Source of the DNA: Nitrososphaeraceae archaeon
GTDB lineage: Archaea > Thermoproteota > Nitrososphaeria > Nitrososphaerales > Nitrososphaeraceae
Assembly (NCBI GenBank): GCA_016782225.1
Contig: JADDOW010000043.1
Coordinates: forward strand, 54,263-100,255
Direction of reading: 5' to 3'
Length of the DNA: 45,993 nucleotides
The notes under the pieces were generated by a model. It was not told where the DNA came from. It saw nothing but the letters and a program-made list of their open reading frames with translations, and searched no databases. Position 1 is the stretch's first letter, and every line of letters starts with the position of its first letter. This document shows, piece by piece, positions 78 to 43,914 of this stretch. The position numbers and the translations under genes were made by a program.

Positions 78-327
78 CATCGTCAGAAGGGGGATTAACT
101 TTACTTGTGTTTTCAGTGCAATCCTGAGGAGAACCAACAATAGTACTTGTCATCATGCTGGCCATGCAATCGGTTGTATAAGCAATTAATGGACTATCAG
201 AATAAAGGCCTGCTTGTCCATAGGAAACTGCAATGTTTGAGGGGTATAGTGAGACTAGCGATACAAATAAAAATATCACCATAAAAGAATGGGTTTTGCT
301 TGATATATACACAATAAAATTAAACAT
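1..327 (-). CDS. Secreted repeat protein, N-terminal part (runs off left edge)
   Basis: This is an open minus-strand frame from an ATG at 327 to the window edge, 109 codons with no stop. The N-terminus is a signal peptide or anchor (hydrophobic core MVIFLFVSLVSLY, then a small-residue region AVSYGQA). The mature part begins with two cysteines (DCMASM, QDCTEN) and then enters perfect 11-residue repeats of the type TTTPNVIKPES, rich in Thr, Pro and Ser. Such repeats suggest an extended, possibly O-glycosylated cell-surface stalk. The frame is not contradicted by any stop. The C-terminal part is outside the window, so the family cannot be named. Confidence 0.6.
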   Translation of the reverse strand, partial: MFNFIVYISSKTHSFMVIFLFVSLVSLYPSNIAVSYGQAGLYSDSPLIAYTTDCMASMMTSTIVGSPQDCTENTSKVNPPSDDAPNVIKPESTTTPNVIKPESTTTPNV

Positions 328-36136: not shown

Positions 36137-38362
36137 TCATGTTGTATCTGAAAATGCTTTAAGCCGTGTTACGTCGTGTTTAAAGAACATATCTAATGTC
36201 CAATCAATCAACACCCTCATTTTTTTCTCCAATGTAGGTAGATTCAGCAAATAGAAGGTCCGCCAAAGCCACCATGCCCAAAAACCGTGTATTTTAAATC
36301 CAAGTATTATTGCAACACCGTTCCTATTGCCTACTGTGGCCATATTGCCTTTTGTCTTGTAATGAAATGATTTTAAGTTATGGTACGCTGTATCTTTACC
36401 TTTCCCACGTATGACAAAACTGCCATCATTATGCTCGTTACTGTTATCTTTAACCTTTTTGAGTATAGAAACGATATTTTCTGCCACCACCTTTGCTTCT
36501 CTGAGTGCATGCTGCGCAGTAGGGGGATAGGGTTTTCCCGTGTCTGTATCTATTATGTGAGCACAATCTCCTATTGCAAAAACATTGGGATACCCTACAA
36601 GCTGAAGGTAATGGTTATCTTTTATTCGCCCACTTTTATCATGTTCACAAGGCAATCTTGAAATTAACGGATCAGGCGAGACACCCGCAGACCACACTAT
36701 TGTTTGTGTTCGGATCACCTCCCCGTTATCCAATTTTACTGTATTTTCTGAAGCTTCTGTAGCGTGTGCATCAAGGACTACTTCCACACCTTTTTCTTCA
36801 AGCTTTTTTAAAGCAAAATCCCCTAATTCCTGGGTCATCTCCGGTAAAAGGTGTCTTGTAGCACTCACCAATATTACACGAATATCCCTATCATTATCTA
36901 TATTATGATAATATGTCTTTACAGAATCTCGTACAAAATCGTTTAGCGCTCCCACTGTTTCAACTCCTCCAAATCCACCTCCAACTACCACAAACGTCAT
37001 TAATTCTCTTTTTAGGTATCCATCATTTTCATCTTTGTTTTGATCATTCATCTTTATTATTTCTGCTTCTTCTAGCATACTGATAACATGGTTTCTCAAA
37101 ATAATTGCATCGCTTAGTGTCTTCATAGAGAAAGCATATCTTTTCATGCTGTTGATTCCAAAATATTTAGTTTCGCCTCCCAATGCTATAACAAGATAAT
37201 CGTATTTTAGGGTGAGATGTTGTTTATCCATATTATTATCGATATTGCTAGTGTATGAGTTTTGTGATGATGGTTGGTCTGTAGAAGACTCTGGTGAATG
37301 TGATTGCATCAATGGTAATTTTTTAGACGCATTTGTATTGTTGAGTCTGTTGCTTTTGCCAATCCGATATGCTATATTTACGGTCTTATCCTTCAGATCT
37401 ATTGCATCAACAGTAGCTTCATAAAATTTTGCCCTTTTGCAAAATGCTCTAATTGATGTTGTTATATGCCTTGTTTCTATTGCACCTGTAGATACCTCGT
37501 GTAGCATCGGCGTAAATAAAAAGTAGTTGTCTTTATTGACAATGGTCATATCTATACCTATGTCATTTTGAAATTCTTTTTGCAGTTTTTTTAAAACTTC
37601 TATTCCCCCAAATCCCCCTCCTAGTATCAATATACGCTTTTTGTCAATTGGCTTTAGCCCATGAATAGTTTCCCTATGCTTTTGATATATATCAATTCTT
37701 GGAAAAGATATGTCACATTCTGGACATCTGTATCTTGTTCCTAATTTGATTGATAGAAGGGATGAGGTTATCCCCAATGTTATTCCAAATATTATGTGTA
37801 TAATAGCAGAGCCTGCCAAGATGCTCAGTTGATTGCTCTTTATCTGCTCTGCGATTTGATCTTCTGGTATAGACGGGCCTAATTCTGCCAAAGTTTCTAT
37901 TGTCTCGGGTGCCAAAACAAAATGCTGCACGGGTATATAAAAGATAAAAAATACAACAGTGCCTGTAAAAAGGCCATACAACAAGCCATTTGATGGCTTG
38001 CTTATATTCAAAATACCTGTCTTATAGAGAAAAATACCGGTTACTATTCCTATTGATATTGCAGTAACTAAATGTATGGCCGTTCCTGCCAATATTGTTG
38101 CTGCATATTCCCCTCCATAATCAGAATGAACACCGATAACATGACTAAACACCATCCATGTAAAATAGTAAGGAAGACCCATTTCAATATCTGTTATTGT
38201 TTTGGAGATCATAATTGCTATGGCACCAAGTATTGCACCGGATACTACAAAGAGAACTTCCCTTCTTAAGGAGAAGTCTATCTTTATTGTCTCTTGACCC
38301 TTTTTTTGTTGTTGTTTTTGTTCTCTTCTTTTTCCTCCGGTATTGTTTGAATTAAATGGCAT
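36137..38362 (-). CDS. NDH-2-type dehydrogenase fused to membrane module and zinc finger
   Basis: This 741-residue fusion has a basic cytoplasmic N-tail (1-30) and a membrane domain with about five hydrophobic helices (about 35-205; conserved His 97 and His 189 inside helices). A single C2H2 finger follows (Cys213, Cys216, His229, His234), then an NDH-2 pyridine-nucleotide oxidoreductase (about 241-741). That part has FAD motif GGGFGG (248-253), the second Rossmann VVVGGGFGGVETVGAL, and TIVWSAGV and VFAIGDCAH. The C-terminus carries the amphipathic membrane helix WAWWLWRTFYLLNLPTLEKK. It probably oxidises NAD(P)H and reduces quinone. The start is the ATG at 38362. Confidence 0.88.
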   Translation of the reverse strand: MPFNSNNTGGKRREQKQQQKKGQETIKIDFSLRREVLFVVSGAILGAIAIMISKTITDIEMGLPYYFTWMVFSHVIGVHSDYGGEYAATILAGTAIHLVTAISIGIVTGIFLYKTGILNISKPSNGLLYGLFTGTVVFFIFYIPVQHFVLAPETIETLAELGPSIPEDQIAEQIKSNQLSILAGSAIIHIIFGITLGITSSLLSIKLGTRYRCPECDISFPRIDIYQKHRETIHGLKPIDKKRILILGGGFGGIEVLKKLQKEFQNDIGIDMTIVNKDNYFLFTPMLHEVSTGAIETRHITTSIRAFCKRAKFYEATVDAIDLKDKTVNIAYRIGKSNRLNNTNASKKLPLMQSHSPESSTDQPSSQNSYTSNIDNNMDKQHLTLKYDYLVIALGGETKYFGINSMKRYAFSMKTLSDAIILRNHVISMLEEAEIIKMNDQNKDENDGYLKRELMTFVVVGGGFGGVETVGALNDFVRDSVKTYYHNIDNDRDIRVILVSATRHLLPEMTQELGDFALKKLEEKGVEVVLDAHATEASENTVKLDNGEVIRTQTIVWSAGVSPDPLISRLPCEHDKSGRIKDNHYLQLVGYPNVFAIGDCAHIIDTDTGKPYPPTAQHALREAKVVAENIVSILKKVKDNSNEHNDGSFVIRGKGKDTAYHNLKSFHYKTKGNMATVGNRNGVAIILGFKIHGFWAWWLWRTFYLLNLPTLEKKMRVLIDWTLDMFFKHDVTRLKAFSDTT

Positions 38363-38369
38363 GTCTTTG

Positions 38370-38558
38370 CTAATCTCCTTTTTGCAATCTCATCTCAGAA
38401 CAACTTTGAATAAAATTCTCATAAATCTGCGTATGCCTGGATATTATTGGTGAGAATAATAGATCATCGGATAGTTTGATTTTTACTTTGGTTTTAGAAT
38501 TTGTTGTATGGCTACTGGAATTATCGAAATACTTCGTTATCGAATATTCTCCTTTCAT
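38370..38558 (-). CDS. Small polar protein upstream of the NDH-2 fusion
   Basis: This is a 62-residue frame in the same orientation, ending 7 nt before the NDH-2 ATG and carrying an AAAGGAG sequence at its end, usable as a ribosome-binding site for that gene. The N-terminus is polar (MKGEYSITKYFDNSSSH) and no family is recognised. A TATA-like TGTATATAAAG lies about 35-45 nt upstream. It may be a leader gene of the operon. Confidence 0.4.
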   Translation of the reverse strand: MKGEYSITKYFDNSSSHTTNSKTKVKIKLSDDLLFSPIISRHTQIYENFIQSCSEMRLQKGD

Positions 38559-38843
38559 TTAACATTTTGGAATTTTATAAGATATAATCTTTATATACAA
38601 GCCTTCAAGTATTCATTTAACCCTTTTATTTCTTCTATAGGGGCGTTATATGGAGACCCATGCATTTGTTATGTATTTAGGTATTTAGGTAACATTTTCC
38701 TAAAATAAAAAAGTTTTTTACCTTTTCATTCTGTCTTTCTATTTGTTTGAGTTTGCGTTTTATTACTTGACCAATTCCTTATGTTAAACCACATATTGTA
38801 ATTGATTGAAGGCTTTTAGTTTAAATTGAACAGTTGAAGGCAA

Positions 38844-39449
38844 TTGTTAAATTTCATCCTGATAAAAAAGCTTGTGAAAGAAATAAGAAAAGAAGAAAAC
38901 ATTCCAAATTCCTTGGAGTATCCTGTTGGAAAAAGTATAGCTTTTGGGGCTATAGGCGGATTTGTTGCGGGGTTGGTAATGGCCCCATTCCTTATGATAA
39001 CTGCCATGATGGCAGGAATGCCTGCGGATACAATGCCTACAGCCATGGGTCTTGCCTTTGGAGCTAATAAAGACAACGCAATGATGGCAGGATTTGGGAT
39101 GCACATGCTTACAAGTGTTCTTATAGGCATAGTATTTGGAGCTGTAACATCCATTAAAAAGCTAAGGATTACAGGGTTTGCAAAAGGTATTGCAGAAGGC
39201 ATTATAGCCGGGATGATCGCATTTGTAGTAATCTTTATACCAGTTTCCATGATTATGATGCCACCGGTATTGGTAGGTATGGTAAATCAGATGAATCCTG
39301 CCATGAGTGAGCCCCAAATAATGGGTATGCTACAGCAAAACATGCCATTGATGTTTGGAATGGGAATAGTAGAGCATTTGGCATATGGTGTGGTATTAGG
39401 AGCTGTTACTTCTGCGCTAATAATAAAAACAAGGCCAACCACCAAATAA
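38844..39449 (+). CDS. Stand-alone membrane module homologous to the NDH-2 N-terminus
   Basis: This protein of up to 201 residues (TTG 38844, or GTG 38874) has four to five helices in two halves: GAIGGFVAGLVMAPFL, then GMHMLTSVLIGIVFGAVTS; and GIAEGIIAGMIAFVVIFIPVSM, then GIVEHLAYGVVLGAVTSALI. Each half has one His in a helix (His87, His178) at the same place as in the fused protein, and both share IPV in the third helix. Met-rich loops (MMAGMPADTM, MNPAMSEPQIMGM) may bind copper. Function unknown. Confidence 0.75.
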   Translation: MLNFILIKKLVKEIRKEENIPNSLEYPVGKSIAFGAIGGFVAGLVMAPFLMITAMMAGMPADTMPTAMGLAFGANKDNAMMAGFGMHMLTSVLIGIVFGAVTSIKKLRITGFAKGIAEGIIAGMIAFVVIFIPVSMIMMPPVLVGMVNQMNPAMSEPQIMGMLQQNMPLMFGMGIVEHLAYGVVLGAVTSALIIKTRPTTK

Positions 39450-39567: not shown

Positions 39568-39604
39568 TTAATTATCTTGGACGACCATAAGGAGGATGAA
39601 TGAT

Positions 39605-41024
39605 ATGGCAACTAGTTTTGACCTTATAGTTATTGGTGCTGGCTCAGGTTTAGATGTTGCCAGTGCGGCTGCAGAACATGGTCTTAGAGTAGCTATAATA
39701 GAAAAGGACAGGATGGGAGGAACCTGTCTTAACAGGGGATGCATACCTACAAAGTTGCTTATACATAGTGCAGACATAGCAGAAACTATAAAAAATGCAT
39801 CTGTATTTGGCATTAACGTTAGTGGATTTTCGGTTGATTTTGATAAAATAATGAGAAGAGTAAATGGAATCACAGATACAGATTCAGATAGCATAAAAGA
39901 TGGATTAAAACAATCAGAAAACCCAAAGCTATTTGCAGGGGACTGTAAATTTATAGGAAATAAAAGAGTTGCAATTAGAACAAACAAAGATGAGGAGGAA
40001 CAGGTAATAACCGCAGAAAAAATACTGGTTGCTGCTGGTAGTAAGCCACGTACTCCAAAATTAAAAGGACTTTCAGAGGTGGATTATATTACTAGTGATG
40101 AAGCATTACGCCTTAGAAAACAACCTCGTGTGCTTACCTTTATTGGGGGAGGATACATTGCATGTGAACTGGCACACTTTTTTGGCAGTCTTGGAACAGA
40201 AATACACGTTATACAGCGTAATGATGTGCTAATACCAAACGAAGATAAAGAGATTTCCAAGAGGTTCACTGAAATTTTCTCAAAAAAATATAACGTACAT
40301 TTAGGATATACTGCAGAGTCCATATCAAAGAATAATGACACGAATAATAACGATTCAGAAACGACCTTTAGGGTGGAGGCAAAAGACAAATCAGGAAAAA
40401 TATTGGAGATCGATTCTGATCAAGTACTTGTCTCGGTAGGAAGGATTCCTTCTACTGCTTCACTAGATTTAGAAAAAACTGGAGTAAATGTAGATGAGAA
40501 AGGTTTCATAGTGGTGGACAATTATCTTGAGACCAATGTGAAAGGAGTTTTTGCGTTAGGCGATATAATAGGAAGATACATGTTCAAACATAATGCAAAT
40601 CTTGAGGCCCAGTATGCTTATACCAATATGTTACACAATGATGGAAAAATACCTGTAGATTATGCTGCCATGCCTCATGCTATATTTACCTCTCCTCAAA
40701 TAGCAGGAGTTGGATTTACAGAACAAGAATTGGTAAAGAAAGGCATAGATTATGTAAAGTCCACATATCCGTATATTCATACCGGAATGGGTGAAGCAAT
40801 TGAGGATAGAGACGGATTTGTAAAATTCCTTGTTGACTCAAAAAGTAGGAAAATTTTTAGGTTGCCACATTATGGGAACTGATGCTTCTGTTTTAATCCA
40901 TGAGGTATTAGTTGCTATGAGAACAGGCGATGGCACAACTGATGGTATTACCAATACAATACACATACACCCGGCCCTTTCGGAAGTGGTTGCCAGAGCT
41001 GCTGGTAATTTTAGGACAGGATAA
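39605..41024 (+). pseudogene. Pyridine nucleotide-disulfide oxidoreductase, frameshifted near the C-terminus
   Basis: The dihydrolipoamide dehydrogenase/mercuric-reductase-like fold has the FAD motif VIGAGSGLDVASAAAEHG, redox Cys pair GGTCLNRGCIPTK and NAD motif GGGYIACELAHFFGSLG. The main frame stops at 40882 (KIFRLPHYGN). The correct continuation, LGCHIMGTDASVLIHEVLVAMRTGDGTTDGI ... HIHPALSEVVARAAG with the catalytic His-Glu pair, lies one frame over to 41024. One extra T in TTTTT (40854-40858) explains it. A Shine-Dalgarno GGAGG (39591-39595) selects ATG 39605. Confidence 0.85.
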
Positions 41025-41832: not shown

Positions 41833-42528
41833 TTAGTAAAATTTTTTCCTAAATAGGAATGCAATGATAACAGTTCCAATAAATGTGGCTGTCCAATAGA
41901 GCCATAGGTTTGCTAACTCACCAGATAGCAAAGCAGGGGCTAATGAACGTGCGGGATTCATTGACGCTCCAGATATGAATGCCAAAAAGAGTATATCCAA
42001 GCCAACAATCCCGCCAATAGCGATTCCTCCAAACCCCCTTAGTCCTTTTTTTTGCACCACAACCAAAATAACGGCCATAAGCAGAGCAGAAGCCAATATC
42101 TCTACACCAAATACCAAAGGTAGAGGGTAAGCATAGTTTGGAGAATTGGCTCCTAGAAAAGCCTCATTTCCTATCATGTACTTTACAAAAATGCTCCCAA
42201 GTAAGGCACCCATTACCTCGGCTGTTATGTAAAGAACGGCAAGTCTTTTTGTGATGTGTTTTGTAACCAGAAAGCCCAATGTTACTGCAGGGTTAAAGTG
42301 CGCCATAGAGACTTTACCAAACATGTAAACACCAATTGCAACACCTACAGAGGGAGCGAATGCAATGAAGGGAATGCCCAATGCCCCATTTAGTTTGGAG
42401 TCTGTGACCACAGAACCTGTGGCCAACACTACCACAATAAAAGTACCAATAACCTCGGCAATGAATTTCTTTTGATTAGGGGATAAGTTATTCCTTATTA
42501 CCGTAGCAAGACTTGTTCTCTTAATCAT
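41833..42528 (-). CDS. Aquaporin/MIP family channel
   Basis: This 231-residue protein of six helices has both pore motifs: AHFNPAVTLG (NPA at about 79-81) and SGASMNPARSLAPAL (NPA at about 191-193 with the following Arg). It is the third gene after arsM and arsC on the same strand. In some bacteria an ars-linked aquaglyceroporin (AqpS) exports arsenite, so an arsenite channel role is plausible; water or glycerol transport is the alternative. Confidence 0.9.
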   Translation of the reverse strand: MIKRTSLATVIRNNLSPNQKKFIAEVIGTFIVVVLATGSVVTDSKLNGALGIPFIAFAPSVGVAIGVYMFGKVSMAHFNPAVTLGFLVTKHITKRLAVLYITAEVMGALLGSIFVKYMIGNEAFLGANSPNYAYPLPLVFGVEILASALLMAVILVVVQKKGLRGFGGIAIGGIVGLDILFLAFISGASMNPARSLAPALLSGELANLWLYWTATFIGTVIIAFLFRKKFY

Positions 42529-42595
42529 GCTTTTGCTCTTTTTGTTTTAAATATTCGTATCTGATGACAGGGGGAATGAGCCTTGATTTACTTGT

Positions 42596-43039
42596 TCATT
42601 TTTCTTTACCAATCTCTTCAACCATTTCTTTTATTTTTCTCTCAATCTCGTCTCTTATCTCCCTTACCTTTTCTATTGGTTTTCCTTTTGGGTCCTCTAT
42701 TCCCCAATCCAAGACTTTGGGAACAAACAATGTGGGGCAGAAATTCTTATCCATGCATCCCATATTGATGATTTTGTCGGCATTTCTTATCATTTCTTCG
42801 CTAAGCTCCTTTGGTTTTTGATTGCTAATGTCTATGCCAACCTCCCTCATTACTTCTGCAGCAAGAGGATTTATTTGAGATTTGGGAACGGTTCCCGCAC
42901 TTGTAGGCTCATAGTCTTTAGGTGCGTATTTCCTAAATAATCCCTCTGCCATTTGGCTACGCCCAGCATTCTCAACACACACAAACAGAACATACTTTTT
43001 TATTTTACCTTTAGGTTCGCCATTGAAAGAAAGGTTCAT
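42596..43039 (-). CDS. arsC: Thioredoxin-coupled arsenate reductase (low-MW PTPase type)
   Basis: The 147-residue product starts with the PTPase loop VLFVCVENAGRSQMAEG (Cys21) and has two further cysteines in INMGCMDKNFCPTLF (Cys95, Cys101). It matches the three-Cys relay of Staphylococcus-type ArsC. It reduces arsenate to arsenite, with thioredoxin resetting the disulfide. It lies 22 nt after arsM and 67 nt before the aquaporin gene; all three point the same way. Confidence 0.93.
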   Translation of the reverse strand: MNLSFNGEPKGKIKKYVLFVCVENAGRSQMAEGLFRKYAPKDYEPTSAGTVPKSQINPLAAEVMREVGIDISNQKPKELSEEMIRNADKIINMGCMDKNFCPTLFVPKVLDWGIEDPKGKPIEKVREIRDEIERKIKEMVEEIGKEK

Positions 43040-43061
43040 TTTGACTGAAATTGATTTGTTA

Positions 43062-43859
43062 TTACTTGATTGCCTTTACCACTAAACTCGAGATTTTTCT
43101 ACTGCCATCATAATTATCTTCAATCTCCATGTATGGTTTTTCATCCAACACCCCAATATTGGTAAATCCCGCTTCCCTTATGCAGTTGAGATAATTTTCC
43201 TTTGTTAGTGAGCCATCAATGCAGCTACACCAATCATCTGCATTTACTGAATGCTCGTCCATTTCTTTAGATGTAACCAAATCGGATATCACTATCTTTC
43301 CAATCCCATTTGGCTTTAGGATTCGGTAAATCTCTTTGAAGGTTTTCACCTTATTGGATGTGAGGTTGATGACACAGTTGCTTATAACCACATCCGCAGA
43401 ATTGTCCTCAACAGGTATCCTTTTTTCAATGTCCCCATGCCTAAACTCTACGTTTTTGTAATTGTCTTTTTCAGCGTTATCTCTTGCTTTCTCAAGCATC
43501 TTTTCGGTCATATCAACTCCAATGACCTTTCCGCTATCTTTCACAATATTGGCAGCCAGGAACACGTCAATGCCGGCACCAGAGCCTAAATCAACAACCA
43601 CATCATCTTCTTTTATGTGGGCAAACTTTGTCGGGTTGCCGCATCCCACACCTAAAATGGATGATTTAGGGATGGATGCCAATTCCGTTGGATTATATCC
43701 AATTGCCTCTATGGACTGTATTGTCGACTCAGCAGGATTTTCTTCGCTACTACAGCATTCTGAAGAAGGCGTGCAGCATGAATCCGAATTGCCAAACACA
43801 GCGATATTGCCATATCTTTCTTTGATTTTTTCTTTAATGTTTTTGTCATTATTGGTCAT
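43062..43859 (-). CDS. arsM: Arsenite S-adenosylmethionine methyltransferase
   Basis: This 265-residue methyltransferase has motif I VVDLGSGAGIDVFLAA. ArsM-type cysteines are present in VGCGNPTKF, VVISNCVINLT and the ADDWCSCIDGSLTKENYL segment. A Cys-rich N-tail (CCTPSSECCSS) is an added thiol cluster. It adds methyl groups to arsenite, giving volatile or less toxic products. The ATG at 43859 lies about 26 nt from a TATA box shared with the divergent regulator. Confidence 0.9.
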   Translation of the reverse strand: MTNNDKNIKEKIKERYGNIAVFGNSDSCCTPSSECCSSEENPAESTIQSIEAIGYNPTELASIPKSSILGVGCGNPTKFAHIKEDDVVVDLGSGAGIDVFLAANIVKDSGKVIGVDMTEKMLEKARDNAEKDNYKNVEFRHGDIEKRIPVEDNSADVVISNCVINLTSNKVKTFKEIYRILKPNGIGKIVISDLVTSKEMDEHSVNADDWCSCIDGSLTKENYLNCIREAGFTNIGVLDEKPYMEIEDNYDGSRKISSLVVKAIK

Positions 43860-43914
43860 ACATGAGTTTACAATAGAAACTATTTAAAATGGTAAGAGGA
43901 ATATGGTAAAGTAA
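43860..43914. promoter_or_regulatory. Divergent promoter with one symmetric TATA box
   Basis: The 55-bp gap between arsM and the HxlR gene contains one TATTTAAAAT at 43881-43890. It reads as a TATA box on both strands. Its centre is about 26.5 nt from the arsM ATG and about 29.5 nt from the GTG of the regulator, the right distance for two leaderless genes. No second TATA-like element is visible. Confidence 0.55.

Follow-up and report, generated by a model that had tools for sequence, protein, structure and literature searches.

A DUF6789-like, histidine-bearing four-helix module fused to type II NADH dehydrogenase in Nitrososphaeraceae: a candidate quinone-binding or relay domain

Type II NADH dehydrogenase (NDH-2) has been described as a single-subunit monotopic protein with one flavin (PMC5220320). 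Here, we analysed a 45,993-nucleotide stretch (hereafter the window) of a 2.6-Mb genome from ammonia-oxidising soil archaea of the Nitrososphaeraceae. In this stretch, an NDH-2 gene begins with a four-helix membrane module and a C2H2 finger and stands divergently beside a separate gene for the same kind of module (Table 1). Compared with the Caldalkalibacillus thermarum NDH-2 (4NWZ), the fusion has both Rossmann domains, the NDH2_C anchor and the fold in common, but differs in its N-terminal four-helix module and C2H2 finger. The same two parts set it apart from the unfused NDH-2 paralogues of these archaea, with which it shares the NDH-2 enzyme. The Pfam family closest to the module, DUF6789 (PF20587), is to our knowledge a family of unknown function, and a literature search returned no paper on its function or on this module/NDH-2 fusion. 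The initial annotation of the locus had suggested that the module was undescribed, which agrees with the literature but not with Pfam, as the free-standing family falls into DUF6789.

Table 1. Coordinates and properties of the fusion gene, the free-standing module gene and the DM13-associated gene runs (window positions unless a locus is named).
Feature	Position	Strand	Basis or remark
Fusion gene: DUF6789-like membrane module, C2H2 finger and NDH-2, 741 aa	36137..38362	-	
Four-helix module of the fusion, residues 29-207	37742..38278	-	AlphaFold2 helices and homology to the free-standing protein
Fusion helices: TM1 32-60, short helix 67-75, TM2 86-115, TM3 123-161, short helix 167-176, TM4 178-207			AlphaFold2
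His97 codon, TM2 of the fusion	38072..38074	-	Read directly; invariant in 23/23 aligned NDH-2 fusions
His189 codon, TM4 of the fusion	37796..37798	-	12 His / 11 Asn in 23 fusions
C2H2 finger C213-x2-C216-x12-H229-x4-H234, between module and enzyme	37661..37726	-	
NDH-2 enzyme (Pyr_redox_2 + NDH2_C), residues 240-741	36140..37645	-	Pfam, Foldseek
Free-standing module, 201 aa, four TM helices	38844..39449	+	TTG start; likely alternative GTG 38874
His87 codon, TM2 of the free-standing module	39102..39104	+	Aligned to His97; His in 19/25 relatives
His178 codon, TM4 of the free-standing module	39375..39377	+	Aligned to His189; His in 23/25 relatives
Divergent intergenic region, 481 bp between start codons	38363..38843	.	
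His/His module-module-DM13 runs	L059:4515-6948, L128:5221-6997, L203:1684-4689, L204:3438-5953		First three genes abut or overlap

The fusion gene and its divergent neighbour

The enzyme part of the fusion matched the Pfam profiles PF07992 (Pyr_redox_2; 142.6 bits), PF00070 and PF22366 (NDH2_C; 34.6 bits against a cut-off of 27.7), and in Foldseek it matched the C. thermarum NDH-2 (4nwz_A) with an E-value of 9e-32 and a TMt of 0.90. Both the two nucleotide-binding domains and the NDH2 C-terminal domain expected of an NDH-2 are present, but the protein departs from the monotopic plan, since four long hydrophobic helices are predicted at its N-terminus. The AlphaFold2 model of the full fusion is of moderate confidence (pLDDT 73.8, pTM 0.58).

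As the initial annotation had proposed, a C2H2 finger links module to enzyme. Its pattern (C-x2-C-x12-H-x3-5-H) is kept in 22 of the 23 aligned fusions, with a Cys-to-His replacement in the remaining one; the Pfam zf-C2H2 score is below the cut-off, and PDB searches give zinc-finger matches. Mean pairwise identity is 54% for the module versus 58-69% for the NDH-2 parts, and TM2, which bears His97, is the most conserved of the four helices (66% identity). Judged by these alignments, the module is under constraint much like that on the enzyme. Fusions also keep His74 (22/23), Tyr65 and Trp69, located within or next to the short outer helix and missing from the free copies, and Tyr113 and Asn125 are likewise invariant or nearly so.

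The free-standing protein was modelled with a mean pLDDT of 88.2 and a pTM of 0.80, with helices at residues 28-56, 63-71, 76-102, 112-150, 156-165 and 167-195. Because a 95%-identical relative begins at the position equivalent to GTG 38874, the gene may start there rather than at TTG 38844, in which case its histidine numbers would fall by 10. A sigma-70 scan, which does not cover archaeal promoters, gave no informative promoter signal between the two genes. The genome holds further copies of the module on contig C80 and, in broken form, on contig C10. Apart from the genome studied here, only the sister genome (G001) has a free copy beside the fusion, and G022 retains a 65-aa remnant. The neighbouring copy is a paralogue that may or may not act together with the fusion.

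Kinship of the two modules and their relation to DUF6789

The initial annotation had claimed that one module occurs both fused to NDH-2 and free next door, and had named a profile-profile match as a check. We found that the N-terminal part of the fusion protein (about 207 of 741 residues) aligns with the free-standing protein in BLASTP over 196 aa (E 1e-15, 22% identity), pairing His97 with His87 and His189 with His178 as had been anticipated. In hhalign, the fused and free-standing families matched at 99.7% (E 4e-27). Block shuffling that retains the local hydrophobic profile yielded an E-value of 2.7e-9 at best in 40 controls. On sequence grounds, we thus consider the two modules paralogues and their kinship real.

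The suspected two-halves pattern also proved to be a repeat: within the free-standing family, half 1 aligned with half 2 at 89.7% (E 1.8e-6) with both histidines in register, whereas the reversed control gave 0.0019 and none of 40 shuffles did better than 8.5e-5. The halves of the fused family by themselves did not match significantly (hhalign 5.9%), so that the repeat signal is carried by the free-standing set. The G-x4-H spacing that had been read in the second helix of each half needs correcting, as TM2 has G-x3-H in both proteins.

The order of helices is identical in the two AlphaFold2 models (TM1, a short helix, TM2 with its histidine, TM3, a short helix, TM4 with its histidine), and each histidine sits 11 residues into TM2 or TM4 in both proteins. 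The models are not independent, because the alignment used for the free copy consists mostly of fused modules. The His or Asn side chains of TM2 and TM4 would lie equally deep, within the outer-middle membrane and above a glycine-packed inner half. Since the presumed cytoplasmic segments are rich in Lys and Arg and the outer ones acidic or neutral, both ends of the module are probably cytoplasmic, which would place the finger and NDH-2 in the cytoplasm. A fold search of the PDB with the module gave nothing at E < 0.001 (best E 0.38), and neither a sequence search of the PDB nor a viral fold search returned a relative of it; PHROGs gave one insignificant match and plasmids none.

DUF6789 was the sole recurring Pfam match of the free-standing family, found for 10 of 25 members at E < 0.1 (best 1.3e-8). 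The free copy of the window scores 23.2 bits, under the curated cut-off of 27.1, and the fused module has no direct match by itself. As neither passes the cut-off, their membership rests on homology to relatives that do, such as L061 (35.5 bits, 38% identical to the free copy of the window). By this transitivity through close relatives, both modules belong remotely to the DUF6789 superfamily. They resemble DUF6789 in size, in the four helices and in the Gly/Pro pattern, but a bona fide member (L123) lacks both histidines.

A sulfite-oxidase-type molybdoenzyme of the same genome (L117:3267-4973, G000:C89) also has an N-terminal four-helix domain that is weakly DUF6789-like, and matches occurred in 36 of 121 genomes searched, mostly in open frames of 500-600 aa. 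We treat this domain as a lead and do not count it as a second redox fusion, as its profile match (66%, E 6e-5) lies within the range of the shuffled controls and the histidine pair is not kept.

Occurrence of the fusion and settings of the module

Of 37 sampled Nitrososphaeraceae genomes, 15 have a module-finger-NDH-2 fusion when open frame length is used for counting and truncated contig copies are included. They cover 9 of 12 genera, and carriers of the fusion include Ca. Nitrosocosmicus and Nitrosopolaris. Remnants of the fusion are present in G011 and probably in G028. One further fusion (G172; 642 aa) has the same order of parts and both histidines and comes from family f9, which is probably Nitrosopumilaceae.

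The unfused NDH-2 paralogues (L181-L196) are about 440-480 aa long, start at the first Rossmann motif, are mostly 44-57% identical to the fused enzyme and coexist with fusions in several genomes. No module gene was found near them within the fetched neighbourhood. Mapped on a tree, the fused and unfused states need four label changes, and the fusion may have had a single origin. In one of these paralogues (L182, G035:C675), the first start codon lies inside the enzyme and the open frame continues upstream, possibly a broken fusion.

Near-sisters excepted, no conserved neighbour of the fusion was found among about 25 loci. Elsewhere in the window, positions 41833-43900 hold aquaporin-like, low-molecular-weight arsenate-reductase-like and methyltransferase-like genes, which we take to resemble an arsenic cluster; in Nitrosocosmicus sp. 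SS (L084), the same genes are located a few kb away from its NDH-2 fusion. A dihydrolipoamide-dehydrogenase-like open frame (39596-40882) is 428 aa long compared with 475 aa in the sister genome (L076:356-1783), possibly through a 3' frameshift.

In one f9 genus, four genomes carry two module genes closely followed by genes for DM13, which Pfam names 'Electron transfer DM13'; there are two DM13 genes in L059, L203 and L204 and at least one in L128. The DM13 link rests on this one genus. Two modules that lack both histidines lie beside heme-copper oxidase genes (L072:4346-5098 and L073:3495-4160), the latter in the same gene run as COX1, COX2 and a DUF1404/CtaG-like gene.

Other settings of the module include tandem copies, extra C-terminal domains and a C-terminal finger. 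The closest free relative after the sister copy (L055, 63%) carries its own C-terminal C2H2 finger. In L065, L066, L068, L069, L074 and L075, the module is followed in the same protein by a C-terminal domain of ~110 aa for which Pfam gives no match. A DUF6659 gene that clusters by BLAST with these ~110-aa-domain fusion proteins is found in L127, two genes after that of the module.

It is conceivable, if improbable, that the module is a sensor or regulator of quinone redox state, lipid or metal, with the finger relaying the signal to NDH-2 or partners. The recurrence of a single finger after the module, in the fusions and in L055, would fit such a role, as would the C-terminal domains of other Nitrososphaeraceae copies and the DUF6659 gene near the module in L127. 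Against this, none of the proteins has a recognised signalling domain, Pfam offers no match for the C-terminal domain of L065 and DUF6659 is itself of unknown function.

The histidine pair and candidate functions

Among 69 distinct related modules, the two positions were His/His in 47, His/Asn in 15, Phe or Tyr/His in 4, Ile/Tyr in 2 and Val/Ser in 1, so that 7 modules have lost one or both histidines. The His/His state extends to very distant members (L124, L130, family f30), down to about 20-25% identity. Within the NDH-2 fusions, the second position is only ever His or Asn, and as the His189Asn replacement fits a single change on the tree of full-length fusions, we do not count it as a repeated loss. 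A second His/Asn set comes from tandem proteins, in which it is the second repeat that has this state (L056, L067, L070, L071). Both histidines are absent from L072 and L073, beside COX1/COX2 genes, and from the DUF6789 protein L123; a general role of the family can therefore not need them. From this census, the pair is an old feature, retained in most members, in which the second position may also be Asn. The conservation expected by the initial annotation thus holds in part: for His97 in the fusions, but not for position 189 or for the family as a whole.

Paired histidines in TM2 and TM4 could ligate one heme b in His/His members and provide an electron path linking the NDH-2 side with the outer membrane face, which we judge unlikely. 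The 47 His/His modules and the association with DM13 and NDH-2 speak for it. In cytochrome b of the bc1 complex, the heme ligands come from the second and fourth members of a four-helix bundle, and the same two helices hold the histidines of the module, as in other di-heme or heme b four-helix cytochromes (b561). Unlike those proteins, however, the module has at most one histidine per half, the second is often Asn, and no sequence or fold match to them was found: the PDB search returned no cytochrome b and nothing structural at E < 0.001, and the sole Pfam match to cytochrome b561 is weak, below threshold and in a member that lacks both histidines. Of the 69 modules, 15 are His/Asn and 7 more lack a full pair, and about half of the NDH-2 fusions could not form bis-His ligation. 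Hydrogen bonds, either with a ligand or between the two residues, would agree with the occurrence of Asn at the second position, which is hard to explain for an obligatory bis-His heme. A family-wide bis-His heme is thus unlikely from the sequences, although His/His members alone may bind heme. For the electron-transfer module that had been envisaged, a link to electron transfer is supported by the fusion to NDH-2 in many genomes and by the DM13 gene run; bis-His heme b as a general rule is not supported.

Copper or other metal handling through Met-rich loops and His, also raised initially, has in our view a very slim chance of being correct. The free copy has 23 Met in 201 residues and the sister copy 24 in 191 (11-13%), but these loops are common only to the closest relatives, most others having 4-6% Met, and such a loop is absent from the fused copy. 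Met content is not conserved among relatives, and we rejected copper on this basis.

A purely structural role comes second in our ranking, at a somewhat low probability. The module would be a glycine-packed anchor or scaffold in which the pair merely forms an interhelical hydrogen bond, and the fusion would place NDH-2 at a membrane site or complex. In agreement with this, the free-standing family has Gly and Pro as its invariant residues, some members lack both histidines and the module recurs in many settings. However, attachment by itself fails to explain the fusion, because the enzyme keeps its own C-terminal membrane anchor and the unfused paralogues manage without the module. In addition, the (near-)invariance of His97, Tyr65, Trp69, His74, Tyr113 and Asn125 in the fusions goes beyond the needs of an anchor.

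We tentatively favour a duplicated-hairpin accessory domain that makes NDH-2 polytopic and whose His/His or His/Asn pair would form a site for quinone binding or relay within the outer half of the membrane; this reading ranks above the structural pair, heme b, sensor and copper readings, in that order, while itself being less than probable. The four-helix DUF6789-superfamily domain consists of two copies of a helix hairpin, and its polar pair might bind the headgroup of a quinone or else support an ordered relay of hydrogen bonds. Once fused, it would turn the normally monotopic enzyme polytopic and could channel or exchange quinone and quinol with the enzyme's own flavin-side site. Since position 189 is only His or Asn and His97 is fixed, a hydrogen-bonding pair (to a quinone carbonyl or as a polar pair) fits better than an obligatory heme ligand. 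The NDH-2 fusions and the module-module-DM13-DM13 run favour a link to electron transfer. A point against a quinone site in the module is that NDH-2 has its own at the flavin.

A more far-reaching possibility, which we consider quite unlikely, is that DUF6789-type proteins are membrane electron carriers of a new class that bind quinone or heme. The fusion would then let a single protein take electrons from cytoplasmic NADH by way of the His site to the outside of the archaeal membrane, the place of action of copper or DM13 proteins. In the textbook view NDH-2 is monotopic, and the quinone chemistry of ammonia oxidisers is only partly mapped. A widespread archaeal NDH-2 that is polytopic and His-bearing would be a new architecture of this enzyme. 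DUF6789 would gain its first testable hypothesis, a quinone or heme site in electron transfer, which is suggested by three genomic links: the NDH-2 fusion, the DM13 gene run and the terminal-oxidase neighbourhood.
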